29,943 nt of DNA. It comes from a virus. Numbering within the stretch: position 1 is the first letter of the stretch; each line of letters begins with the position of its first letter. The notes under the pieces were generated by a model. The model had not been told where the DNA came from, ran no database searches, and saw nothing but the letters and a program-made list of their open reading frames with translations. The position numbers and the translations under genes were made by a program. Location of the stretch: positions 1 to 29,943 of the IMG/VR virus record IMGVR_UViG_3300043540_000165. One strand, 5' to 3'. Positions 2,817 to 11,913 of the stretch are shown here, piece after piece.

Positions 2817-4109
2817 ATGAGTATGGCCAGCAGCATTTTGGAAAAGCTCCGGAAACTGGCAGTCCAGATCTGGCCGATTGACCGCCTGCTACCCTACGCA
2901 CGGAATGCGCGGACGCATTCCGACGAGCAGGTGGCGCAGGTGGCCGCCAGCATCCAGGAATTCGGATGGACGAATCCGATCCTGGTCGGCAGGGATGGCG
3001 TGATCATCGCCGGCCACGCGCGCCTGGCGGCCGCGCGGAAGCTGGGTATTGCCGAAGTTCCAGTCATCGTCCTGGACCACCTGACGGAAACGCAGCGGCG
3101 CGCCCTGGTCCTGGCCGACAATAAGCTGGCGCTCAACGCCGGGTGGGACGAGGAAATGCTCCGCGTGGAGCTGGAAACGCTGAAGGAGGACGACTTCGAC
3201 CTGGGTATCGTCGGCTGGAGCAACGAGGAGTTGGACGTGCTCCTGACCGATCCAGAGCACACGAACGAGGGCCTCAGCGACGAAGACGCTACGCCCGACG
3301 TGCAGGAGACCGCCATCACGGTTCCAGGCGATGTATGGGTCCTGGGCAACCACCGGCTTCTGTGCGGCGATGCCACCCAGATGGAATCCGTGGAGAAGGC
3401 GATGGCGGGCGGGCTGGCCGACATGGTGTTCTGCGATCCGCCGTACAACGTGAACTACGGCCAGACGATGAAGGACAAGCTCCGCGGCAAGACTCATCGG
3501 AAGATCGCGAACGATAACCTCGGCGATGGCTTCGAGCAGTTTCTTCGCGATGCCTGCGTGAACCTCCTGGCCGTGACCAAAGGCGCGATCTACATCTGCA
3601 TGTCGTCGTCGGAATTACACACGCTCTACCGCGCCTTCACCGAAGCGGGCGGGCACTGGTCCACATTCCTGATTTGGGCGAAGAACGTCTTCACGATGGG
3701 GCGCGCGGATTACCAGCGGCAATACGAGCCGATGCTCTACGGGTGGAAGGATGGCGCGGATCATTACTGGTGCGGCGCGCGCGATCAGGGAGACGTCTGG
3801 TTCGTGAAGAAGCCGCACCGCAACGATCTTCATCCGACGGCCAAGCCCGTCGAGTTGGTGGAACGCGCCTTGCGCAACTCCAGCAAGGGCCGGGACACGA
3901 TCTTCGATCCGTTCGGCGGCTCCGGCACAACGCTGATCGCGTGCGAGAAGGCGGGGCGGCAGGCACGGCTGATCGAGTTGGAGCCGCAGTACTGTGACGT
4001 GATCATTCGCAGATGGCAGCAATTCGCCGGGCAGCAGACGCGGCATGAGGAATCCGGGCGCACCTTTGACGAAGTGGCTGCCGGGAATGGCATGGAAAAT
4101 AAGCAGTGA
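2817..4109 (+). CDS. ParB-domain DNA methyltransferase, DPPY type (430 aa)
   Basis: This has the same architecture as its left neighbour and is clearly homologous to it over the first 185 residues. The ParB-like domain covers about 15-145 (GHARLAAARKLG at 66-77). Motif IV is DPPY at 207-210, followed by NVNYG, and the AdoMet motif DPFGGSGTT is at 364-372. DPPY in a beta-class enzyme points to N6-methyladenine. Both proteins also share a short C-terminal signature ending in VAA. The pair looks like a tandem duplication in which the catalytic and target-recognition half diverged or was exchanged. The ATG at 2817 overlaps no other gene. The gene runs convergently into the minus-strand cassette, with only 32 bp between them and no obvious terminator. 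Confidence 0.9.
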   Translation: MSMASSILEKLRKLAVQIWPIDRLLPYARNARTHSDEQVAQVAASIQEFGWTNPILVGRDGVIIAGHARLAAARKLGIAEVPVIVLDHLTETQRRALVLADNKLALNAGWDEEMLRVELETLKEDDFDLGIVGWSNEELDVLLTDPEHTNEGLSDEDATPDVQETAITVPGDVWVLGNHRLLCGDATQMESVEKAMAGGLADMVFCDPPYNVNYGQTMKDKLRGKTHRKIANDNLGDGFEQFLRDACVNLLAVTKGAIYICMSSSELHTLYRAFTEAGGHWSTFLIWAKNVFTMGRADYQRQYEPMLYGWKDGADHYWCGARDQGDVWFVKKPHRNDLHPTAKPVELVERALRNSSKGRDTIFDPFGGSGTTLIACEKAGRQARLIELEPQYCDVIIRRWQQFAGQQTRHEESGRTFDEVAAGNGMENKQ

Positions 4110-8185: not shown

Positions 8186-8674
8186 ATGCAGGGAGACCCG
8201 AACGTGAAGGCCGGGCTGCAACGCCTCGTTGCCGCACTGCTGGACCTGATGTGCCAGTACATGCTGGACGCGATCAATACGAAGCGGCTCGGACTGAGCA
8301 TTGGCGACGGCCTGGACGAGTTGTGCGGCCAGTGCGGAACCGATCTCAAGGATCTGGTGAAGTGGCTCTATTTCCTCGAGGCCCAACCGGAGATTGGCGC
8401 CGCAAAAGCGCACGCGACCGTGGCCCAGGTCCTCACCGATGCAACGACCGCGGAAACCGCCTTCGTGGCCGCCGTGAATCAGCTTGCGGACGTGGCGCTC
8501 AAGGCGGGCGACATGGCCGTTTTTCACGGCCTTCAACACCTTGCCAAGTTCCACACGATCGGCGGCGGCGTGGTCGGCTCGACGGATCGCACCGGACACA
8601 TCGCGTGGCTCCAGAAGCAGGACTGGCAGGTCCGCGAGTTCGGCGAAAAGGATTACGAGGCCACGAAGGCGTAA
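8186..8674 (+). CDS. Degenerate bacterioferritin-like protein (162 aa)
   Basis: The overall pattern matches bacterioferritin as I remember it. The start MQGDPNVKAGLQRLVAAL with QYML near 24-27 mirrors MKGD...LN.LL..EL....QYFL. The middle has WLYFLEAQPEI, like ERILFLEGLPNL. The end has GHIAWLQKQ, like GHIDWLETE. Size is equal (about 158 in E. coli). The usual ferroxidase residues are mostly absent on this alignment: position 18 is Leu, the E-x-x-H pair of the second helix is Cys and Asp, and only the His of the last GHI is kept. It is therefore a four-helix protein unlikely to oxidise iron. AAGGGAG eight bases upstream supports the start. It lies between portal and protease/capsid, so a head-assembly role is an inference. 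Confidence 0.6.
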   Translation: MQGDPNVKAGLQRLVAALLDLMCQYMLDAINTKRLGLSIGDGLDELCGQCGTDLKDLVKWLYFLEAQPEIGAAKAHATVAQVLTDATTAETAFVAAVNQLADVALKAGDMAVFHGLQHLAKFHTIGGGVVGSTDRTGHIAWLQKQDWQVREFGEKDYEATKA

Positions 8675-8686
8675 CAGGAGGGCACG

Positions 8687-11038
8687 ATGCCGCTACTCGA
8701 AACTGAAACCTCGAAACCTGCCGCTGCGGAACCGGTGATCACCGCGGCGGAAGCGGCGGCCGCGACCCCGCCGCCCGCCCAACACGATACGGAAATCTTC
8801 ACCGCCGATGCGCACGTCGTGCCCAGCACCGCCAACACGAAAGACGGGACCATCGACGTGGTCTGGTACAGCGGCGCCTATGTGCCGCGCGTCGACCGAT
8901 CGACCGGCGAGCCGTACATGCTCAAGCTCGATATGTCCGGCTGCCGCATGGATCGCCTGAACAACGGCGCGCCGGTTTTCGACACCCACTTCACCGGCGA
9001 CGATTTCAAGTCGCTGATCGCCGGCAAGGTGGGCACGCGCGCGCAAGTGGGCGTCGTCCGGCGTGCCTGGGCGAACGGCGACAAGGGGATGGCCACGTTG
9101 CAATTCGATCTCGGCGATCCCGACGGCGCCGAGATGTTCCGCAAGGCCAGCTCCGGTATCCTCCAGAATCTCAGCTTCGGCACCTTCGTTTACAAGCGCG
9201 ACAAGGTCGACCCGCAGACGCTTCAAACCGAAGCTCCGAACCGCAGTTTTCCAGAGGGCAAGCCGCCGTACCTGAACGACAAGGAAATCGGCATGTTCAA
9301 GGCCACCGACTGGGAGCCGTTCGAAATCTCCCCGTGCACGGTTCCCGCCGATTTCAATACCGCGTTCCTCAGCGCGGAACCCACGGGAGAAATGATCATT
9401 GTCGGCACGCCGGAGCCCGGCGTGATCGATGCACTTCGGGCAATCAGCCCACAAAAGGAGAAACCTGCAATGCCGGAAACGACCACGCAGGAAACGGGCG
9501 TGGATGCCCGTCCAGTGAACGAACAGGCTCTGGCCGCCGCGCGGGAACAGGCGGTCCAGGCCGAACGGCAGCGCGTCAGCGAGATTCAATCGCTGAGCGC
9601 CACCGCAACCAAACACGGCATCGACGGCTCCGTCATTAGCGCGTTCCTCGCCAAAGGCGTATCGGCCGATCAAGCCCGGAAGGAACTGTTCGACCGGCTC
9701 GCCGACCTGGGAGGCCGGACCGTGCCTCCGGGTCCGGGGCAGAAGGGACAGGAGTTCAATCCGCCTTCGGAGCAAGTGACCTTCGGCCGCGATGCTTTGG
9801 AAACGCGTCTCTCCTGCATGCAGGCAGCCATGCTCCTGCGCGCCGACGCCCGCTTCTTCCTGGGGCGGCACCAGGACCACAATGGCAACCTCGGCGAATA
9901 TCTCGACGGCTGCGGCCCCGAGCAGCAGCGGCGCGCCGAGGAGATGGCCCGCGACTACCGCAATTTCAAGCTCGTCGACATGGCCAAGGAATACCTTCAG
10001 ATGAAGGGGGTTCCCGTGCGCGGCTTGGACGTAACGCGGATTGCGGAACTGGCGCTCCAGGCTCCCTCGCGCAACGTGGAGTTCTTCGAGGGTGGCGCCG
10101 AATCGACCTCCGACTTCCCGGCGATCCTGGCTAACGTCGCCAACAAGACCCTGCGCCAGGGTTACGAGGCCTACGCGCGCACCTTCCAGCCGTTCTGCCG
10201 GCAGGTGACCGCGCAGGACTTCAAGCCCATCAACCGCGTGCTGCTGGCCGATGCCCCCGTCCTCCAGGCGATCAACGAAAAGGGCGAGTACCACCGGGCG
10301 CAGCTCACCGACAACAACATCAGCTACAAGCTGGGCACCTACGGCGAGATCGTGGCCATCACGCGCAAGGTCATCATCAATGACGACCTCCAGGCGTTCA
10401 CCCGCGTCCCCGCCCTGCTGGGCGTGGCTGCGGCGCGGCTCGAGTCGGACACGGTGTGGGGCATCATCACCTCGAATCCGGCGGCGATCTACGCGGGCGA
10501 CAAAACCTCGACGGCGTTGTTCCATGCCAATCACGGCAACCTGCTGACCGGCGGCGGCAGCAGCATCGATCCCACGGCGAACGCCGGCAATCCGGCGGGT
10601 ACCGGTCCGCTGGCGGCGCTGGCTGCCGGCCGCAAGGCGTTGCGCTTGCAGAAGGGACCGCAGGGCACGCCCCTCAACATCACCCCGAGGTTTATCGGGG
10701 TGCCGACGGCGCTGGAAACCTACATGCTGCAGCTCGTCTATCCGATCAACATCGCCTCGGCGACCGCCGCAGCCGTGGTGCCCGACTGGGTGCGCAGCCT
10801 GGTGCCGGTGGTCGAGCCGCGTCTCGATGCGGTGGCCGGTGGCGGCACGGCGTGGTACCTGATCGCGGACCCAGCGTACATCGACACCGTGGAGTACTGC
10901 TACCTGGAAGGGCAGCAGGGCGTGTACATCGAGACCAAGCAGGGCTTCGAGATCGACGGCGTCGAGATCAAGGCGCGCATGGACTTCGGCGCGGCGGCCA
11001 TCGATTACCGGGGCCTCCAGAAGAACGCCGGTGCGTAG
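8687..11038 (+). CDS. Prohead protease-major capsid fusion protein (783 aa)
   Basis: Residues about 55-225 resemble an HK97-type prohead protease (family S78). The candidate catalytic residues are His101 (FDTHF), Ser163 (NLSFG) and Glu213 (FEISPCTVPAD), in the family order. Residues about 262-450 are helical and linker-like, similar to a scaffolding region. Residues about 470-783 match the Mu gpT-like major head protein (VAITRKVIINDDLQAF, DYRGLQ near the end). Fused protease-capsid proteins of this kind are known. A strong AGGAGG at 8676-8681 precedes the first ATG. A second in-frame ATG at 9470 has its own AAGGAG, so the capsid part is probably also made separately. A strong hairpin follows the gene. 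Confidence 0.88.
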   Translation: MPLLETETSKPAAAEPVITAAEAAAATPPPAQHDTEIFTADAHVVPSTANTKDGTIDVVWYSGAYVPRVDRSTGEPYMLKLDMSGCRMDRLNNGAPVFDTHFTGDDFKSLIAGKVGTRAQVGVVRRAWANGDKGMATLQFDLGDPDGAEMFRKASSGILQNLSFGTFVYKRDKVDPQTLQTEAPNRSFPEGKPPYLNDKEIGMFKATDWEPFEISPCTVPADFNTAFLSAEPTGEMIIVGTPEPGVIDALRAISPQKEKPAMPETTTQETGVDARPVNEQALAAAREQAVQAERQRVSEIQSLSATATKHGIDGSVISAFLAKGVSADQARKELFDRLADLGGRTVPPGPGQKGQEFNPPSEQVTFGRDALETRLSCMQAAMLLRADARFFLGRHQDHNGNLGEYLDGCGPEQQRRAEEMARDYRNFKLVDMAKEYLQMKGVPVRGLDVTRIAELALQAPSRNVEFFEGGAESTSDFPAILANVANKTLRQGYEAYARTFQPFCRQVTAQDFKPINRVLLADAPVLQAINEKGEYHRAQLTDNNISYKLGTYGEIVAITRKVIINDDLQAFTRVPALLGVAAARLESDTVWGIITSNPAAIYAGDKTSTALFHANHGNLLTGGGSSIDPTANAGNPAGTGPLAALAAGRKALRLQKGPQGTPLNITPRFIGVPTALETYMLQLVYPINIASATAAAVVPDWVRSLVPVVEPRLDAVAGGGTAWYLIADPAYIDTVEYCYLEGQQGVYIETKQGFEIDGVEIKARMDFGAAAIDYRGLQKNAGA
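9455..9472 (+). promoter_or_regulatory. Internal ribosome-binding site and in-frame start
   Basis: AAGGAG at 9455-9460 stands nine bases before an ATG at 9470 that is in frame with the fusion gene (codon 262) and begins MPETTTQETG. It falls just past the protease domain. It would yield a 522-residue scaffold-plus-capsid protein without the protease, much as lambda C and Nu3 share a frame. It may instead be the relic of two separate genes before fusion. Confidence 0.65.
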
Positions 11039-11118: not shown

Positions 11119-11913
11119 ATGCAGAATTACATTCAACGGGGGAGTACCCTCACCGTGACCGCGCCCTATGCGTTGCTGAGCGGCGGCGGTTGCCAGGTGG
11201 GCAACATCTTCGGCGTGTCGGTGAATAACCAGAGCCTGGGCGATTCGACCGAGTTGGTGGTTGAGGGGGTGTTCGATCTCGCCAAAGATGGCAGCACGTT
11301 CACCTCGGGTGCCAAGGTCTACTGGGACAACACCCAGCAGTTGGCGACCGCGAATACGCTGACCGCTGCTGGCGCGGCGAACAAGGAAATCGGCTTCGCC
11401 GTGCTGGATCAGGCCAATGGCGTCGCTGCGCCTGGCGGCCAGGCGGCCGACCCGACGGTGCGCGTGCGGCTCAACCCGCTCAGCTTCGGTCCCGTGCAGG
11501 CGTCCGATACCGATCCTTCCGTGCTTCAGAAGGCGGTCGTCACCCTGACGGCGGCGCAGATCATGGCCATGTATGGCACGCCGCAGAGCATTTTGCCGGC
11601 GCCGGCTGCCGGGCAGGTACTCGTGATCGACCAGATCATCGCGCAGATGAAGCCGGGCGCCACGCAGTTCACTGGCGGCGGTGCGGTGACATTCCAATAT
11701 CACGGGACCGCCATCGTGCCGCACTCGGGGAACATCCCCTCCGCGACCGTCACCGCTGCCGGCGGCAGCGAGAACGTGGTGCCGCCGCCCACGGGCACGA
11801 TCCAGCCGCCCGCAGCGACCGGCCTCGACATCACCAATGCCACGGCCGCCTTCGCCACCGGCAACGGCACACTCGTGGTGACGGTGTTCTACTCCATCAT
11901 CACGCTTTCGTAG
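11119..11913 (+). CDS. Two-domain head decoration protein, DUF2190 plus beta domain (264 aa)
   Basis: The N-terminal about 120 residues fit DUF2190, a family found next to capsid genes and thought to decorate or stabilise the head: MQNYIQRGSTLTVTAPYALLS, a VGNIFGV strand, and a final PTVRVRLN. The C-terminal half (about 130-264) begins VTLTAAQIMAMYGTP and is a beta-rich module of a kind common in phage structural proteins, here with glycine-rich linkers. The fusion may give each decoration site two domains. AAGGAGA at 11104-11110 fixes the ATG at 11119. The frame is open upstream through the capsid gene, but that extension is meaningless. The gene is bracketed by two GC-rich hairpins. Confidence 0.75.
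   Translation: MQNYIQRGSTLTVTAPYALLSGGGCQVGNIFGVSVNNQSLGDSTELVVEGVFDLAKDGSTFTSGAKVYWDNTQQLATANTLTAAGAANKEIGFAVLDQANGVAAPGGQAADPTVRVRLNPLSFGPVQASDTDPSVLQKAVVTLTAAQIMAMYGTPQSILPAPAAGQVLVIDQIIAQMKPGATQFTGGGAVTFQYHGTAIVPHSGNIPSATVTAAGGSENVVPPPTGTIQPPAATGLDITNATAAFATGNGTLVVTVFYSIITLS

Follow-up and report, generated by a model that had tools for sequence, protein, structure and literature searches.

The window analysed here, a 29,943-base virus record, encodes on its plus strand a 783-amino-acid open reading frame (ORF; positions 8687–11038) in which a prohead protease, a scaffold and a major capsid protein (MCP) are fused. The predicted product scores 540.1 bits against the NCBIfam model for prohead protease/major capsid protein fusions (NF045541; curated cut-off 525), which places it in that family, and it also matches phrog_4523 ("major head and protease protein", 4e-161) and Pfam Phage_capsid_4 (5.6e-55). 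The start codon (ATG 8687) is preceded by a Shine-Dalgarno (SD) region around CAGGAGGG (8673–8681, plus strand; anti-SD energy −10.8). A second SD, AAAAGGAG (9453–9460, plus strand), recognised from its sequence and from synonymous constraint, lies within the frame. As an earlier, sequence-only reading of this DNA had claimed, its AAGGAG core (9455–9460) sits 9 nt ahead of an in-frame ATG (9470–9472, plus strand), codon 262 of 783, from which a 522-amino-acid scaffold-MCP (9470–11038, plus strand) is predicted, comprising the scaffold helices and the HK97-fold MCP. Among the SD and ATG pairs inside the fusion ORF, this pair is the strongest. Its anti-SD duplex energy (−8.7 kcal/mol) is comparable with that of real gene starts in the window, and the gene following the fusion begins with an identical SD and spacing (AAGGAG-N9-ATG at 11119). 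An Rfam search of the region around the internal start returned no match, and the local RNA fold there is ordinary (z = −1.5).

The AlphaFold model of the 783-amino-acid protein (mean pLDDT 79) resolves, in order, a beta-rich folded domain (residues 41–221; 8807–9349, plus strand; pLDDT mostly 80–96), a disordered linker (residues 222–279; 9350–9523, plus strand; pLDDT <50 at 222–244 and 253–279), long scaffold-like helices (residues 280–344), a second linker and the capsid domain. The folded N-terminal part is identified as an S78-type maturation protease because its catalytic residues H101 and S163 are invariant across 68 aligned homologues, 43 of which match Pfam Peptidase_S78 (the window protein itself falls below the Pfam threshold). 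At the other end of the protein, Foldseek matched the capsid domain to HK97-fold shells (E about 1e-8). The capsid part is related in sequence to Mu gpT, and its relatives in the PDB include a Mu-type MCP (9jod) and a GpT-domain MCP (8rkx). M262 falls within the disordered linker, between the protease domain and the scaffold helices, which agrees with the earlier placement of the internal start at the border of the protease and scaffold-capsid parts. Based on this model, a product begun at M262 would be a complete scaffold and capsid protein with a flexible N-terminus.

Close relatives were represented by 80 loci whose fusion proteins are 70–85% identical to that of the window. All 80 kept the SD and ATG, 9 nt apart (AAGGAG in 79 and AGAGGAG in one), and the ATG was likewise invariant in 52/52 dereplicated clade members, although the rest of the flanking linker ranks with the most variable regions of the protein. 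The alignment check proposed in the sequence-only reading, namely whether the SD and ATG hold while the surrounding codons vary, therefore came out strongly in its favor. Synonymous sites were compared in 5-codon windows across 40 dereplicated genes (median nucleotide identity 77%). Codons 256–260, which spell the SD, showed a synonymous identity of 0.988 versus 0.64 gene-wide, ranking first of 664 windows. Constraint was still raised for about 12 codons past the internal ATG (codons 263–275, 9473–9511; 0.79 versus 0.64), which is more than the SD alone requires. Strong synonymous constraint in the window clade was also found at codons 245–256, spanning a conserved block immediately upstream (GGGCAATCAGCCC; 9438–9450, plus strand). 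This block contains a putative 4-bp hairpin, GGGC-N5-GCCC, in 74/77 clade members, and is possibly a small RNA hairpin. The LPPA33 clade has a different GC-rich block at a similar place, with poorly kept pairing, and upstream hairpins are weakly enriched family-wide (p = 0.001 versus shuffles and 0.03 versus other places). Given this weak family signal and the poor pairing in the LPPA33 clade, we do not claim the hairpin.

For more distant relatives, viral and genome collections were searched with single proteins as queries, the cross-family alignment (A1) being too divergent, and the loci obtained were dereplicated to <80% amino acid identity, leaving 183 fusions. A recognisable protease-end motif was present in 151 of these, with proteases of the S78 and ClpP types, and was used to anchor a search for an in-frame ATG with an SD energy of −5 or better located 8–72 codons past the motif. 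Such a site was found in 136/151 diverse fusions (90%), at a median distance of 43 codons in the S78 type. Control zones of equal length, eight in all, gave 12–47 positives, and the other two frames gave 28 and 4. Synonymous shuffling (200 replicates) yielded 88.8 ± 4.2 (maximum 101) versus the 136 observed, a null that is high (89/151) because the acidic, lysine-rich linker favors GAG and AAG codons. The homologues compared share ancestry and are not phylogenetically independent, so p-values given here are indicative only. The anchored test replaced an earlier count over a broad border zone (161/183), in which approximately 10 sites fell in the DWEPM protease motif and were SD-ATG lookalikes arising by coding chance. 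Four of the 151 anchored fusions have no border ATG, three of which carry GTG or TTG with an SD, and three loci of this set (L215, L244 and L245) have no convincing border site. Three Bacteroidota prophages kept the border ATG behind an A-rich leader (TTCAAATACA-ATG or similar) that lacks an SD, in line with the general absence of SD usage in Bacteroidota. Such a leader is shared at the border by the Chitinophagaceae prophages L193, L196 and L202, where it is possibly a Bacteroidota-type internal start signal.

The same site stands out within individual lineages. In each of six clades (52, 31, 70, 30, 27 and 9 dereplicated members; the two ClpP-type clades overlap), a single border ATG was present in 100% of members and its SD in 99–100%, and the border SD-start was the best-conserved or equal-best SD-start of the gene. 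The LPPA33 and L457 clades resemble the window clade in that synonymous constraint along the gene peaks at the border region. In all reference phages at about 25–35% identity, whether their protease is of the S78 or the ClpP type, a purine-rich, SD-like sequence accompanies an ATG right after the protease. The border start lies at codon 221 in Gifsy-2 (GAGGAG) and at codon 204 in Paenibacillus phage Pd_22F (AAGGAG). Judging from these comparisons, the predicted border start is the rule across the whole fusion family, including ClpP-type members (e.g., Gifsy-2), and is not particular to the window phage.

Border sites also resemble translation starts in several respects, based on a set of 161 sites that contains approximately 10 probably spurious DWEPM-motif sites. 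The spacing from SD to ATG peaks at 4–8 nt, compared with a flat spread at other internal ATGs. Predicted local mRNA folding is weaker at the border ATG than elsewhere (−12.0 versus −17.2 kcal/mol, p = 5e-28), and this drop in structure has its centre at the ATG itself. Moreover, residue 2 is small at 106/161 border sites versus 1100/2346 other methionines (p = 4e-6), and a small second residue is typical of proteins that lose their initiator methionine. Across lineages, the border SD is encoded by differing peptides and in differing codon phases (EE, KE, QE, KG, RG and TRT), and selection on the RNA is therefore favored. Together, conservation and start-like features support the proposal that ribosomes initiate internally in this gene.

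Other explanations for the conserved site were weighed against internal initiation. The sequence-only reading had itself suggested that the SD and ATG might be a relic of gene fusion, left from a once-separate capsid gene and now unused. This would suit the relationship of the MCP to gpT, which Mu encodes in a gene of its own, and the composite origin from protease-scaffold and MCP genes discussed by the MD8 authors (PMC8508860). However, an unused relic should decay, whereas no other codons in the gene are as constrained as those that spell the SD, and 90% of very diverse fusions retain the site, its SD having been rebuilt from different codons. We consider this origin of the signal highly improbable. 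Equally hard to credit is a role as an SD-like pause site, where the purine run would slow elongating ribosomes and give the protease time to fold ahead of scaffold synthesis, with the ATG being incidental. Its position in a disordered linker just past the folded protease would be apt, but pausing leaves unexplained the invariant ATG, the 4–8 nt spacing, the replacements by GTG or TTG, the open mRNA centred on the ATG and the Bacteroidota ATG that lacks an SD.

Selection could instead act on the protein, if the linker peptide served as a motif for cleavage or interaction and its lysine and glutamate codons produced the SD as a by-product. Some peptide conservation does occur (KEKPAM in the window clade, and EEF..MP in ClpP-type phages), and linkers may be cut by maturation proteases. 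Nonetheless, synonymous constraint is in excess at the SD codons and lineages differ in the peptide over the SD, making a purely protein-level origin quite unlikely. There is a similarly slim chance that the capsid part is also expressed from its own shorter mRNA via an internal promoter. The SD-ATG would be needed equally in that case, but no sigma-70-like promoter was found inside the gene, although the host might recognise a promoter of another type there.

Internal initiation on the message of the fusion itself is hence the reading we favor, and the window gene is very probably a dual-start gene yielding a rare 783-amino-acid protease-scaffold-MCP and an abundant 522-amino-acid scaffold-MCP, in effect the lambda C/Nu3 device extended to the capsid protein. 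The sequences themselves show where the site is, that it is conserved as RNA, that it has the features of a start and that it falls between folded domains; from this we infer the making of both proteins, their ratio, their co-assembly and later cleavage. Ribosomes starting at ATG 8687 would produce the long form, while those starting independently at ATG 9470, guided by the AAGGAG at 9455–9460, would produce the short form without the protease. Because both forms share the scaffold and capsid parts, a minority of long subunits could co-assemble with the short majority, which would set a limited protease dose in the shell, and the shared part would offer a simple means of placing the protease inside. 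After shell closure, the protease would trim the scaffold regions and presumably also cut its own tether. Because maturation probably removes the scaffold part, virion proteomics would probably miss an N-terminus beginning MPETT, which the sequence-only reading had suggested looking for.

The ratio of short to long form cannot be read from SD strength, because the long form also has a strong SD (−10.8 versus −8.7). In several relatives, the long form has a weak SD, begins with GTG or starts within the portal gene, and such starts are suggestive of a bias that would favor the short form. Proheads of HK97 contain 415 MCP and about 60 protease copies, and those of D3 about 90 protease copies (PMC12749128). 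A fusion without a second start would supply one protease per capsid subunit, whereas HK97 and D3 proheads have roughly one for several capsid subunits, a mismatch that the conserved internal start would resolve.

Similar arrangements are known in part from other phages. Lambda C and Nu3 are nested in-frame genes (Shaw & Murialdo 1980, as cited in PMC8508860). The parallel with C/Nu3 drawn in the sequence-only reading holds in that one frame carries an in-frame internal SD and start at the protease/scaffold border, predicted here to give a protease-free product, and in that this start is conserved as an RNA signal. It does not extend to the nested product, which in lambda is scaffold only, the capsid protein (gpE) being encoded by a separate gene, whereas the window frame runs on through the HK97-fold domain to 11038. 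The window gene would thus work like C/Nu3 without being a strict member of that type, because its frame continues through the capsid domain. In Mu, the I/Z protease-scaffold pair is also nested in frame, with an internal start between protease and scaffold. The internal start likewise separates protease from scaffold here, but gpT is encoded by a separate gene in Mu, while the equivalents of I, Z and T form one ORF in the window. The ClpP-scaffold-MCP fusions of Gifsy-2, MD8, F10 and mEp043 (NF045540 type) have the same three-part layout and a conserved border SD-ATG, and differ in that their protease is ClpP-like, compared with S78-like in the window. The predicted short form follows the plan of HK97 gp5, with an N-terminal scaffold domain and an HK97-fold capsid domain. 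In HK97, however, the gp4 protease has its own gene, so that the two start sites setting the ratio belong to different genes.

Protease-capsid fusion genes are already known (MD8 paper, PMC8508860; NCBIfam), as are nested in-frame protease/scaffold genes. The MD8 paper makes no mention of an internal start, and no report of one in protease-capsid fusions was found in the literature searched, whose coverage did not extend to Effantin et al. 2010 on Gifsy-2. This agrees with the earlier impression that the signal had not been pointed out in such fusions; the internal start appears new, although its priority is not certain. Extrapolating from the sequence comparisons, it is likely that nearly every annotated protease-MCP fusion gene, of both S78 and ClpP types and in hosts ranging from Proteobacteria to Paenibacillus and Bacteroidota, yields two products, and that its abundant scaffold-capsid product, made from an unannotated start, is missing from annotations. 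Databases would then give an incorrect N-terminus for the principal capsid precursor in a large phage family. In addition, protease dose would become directly testable in phages such as mEp043 and Gifsy-2, and the gene would be a clear example of a single reading frame under selection both as a protein and as a translation start.

Several loci differ in the makeup of the fusion itself. In L433, L435, L438 and L442, the capsid part is 51–56% identical to that of the Bordetella phage PBb001 fusion and the N-terminal half has a ClpP-like rather than an S78-like motif, which suggests an exchange of the protease half upstream of the border. A Rhizobium prophage (L234, 2863–4368) carries a stand-alone scaffold-MCP-like ORF without a fused protease, which starts MDETTLTAM after AGGAAAACAAA. 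Split-gene comparators were set aside as too few or doubtful (L402 looks frame-shifted, L241 is a fragment, and L234 is the stand-alone MCP). Elsewhere in the window, two adjacent ORFs (1253–2800 and 2817–4109) each encode a ParB-like domain at the N-terminus joined to a DNA methyltransferase (phrog_498, etc.), in an arrangement resembling a tandem duplication.
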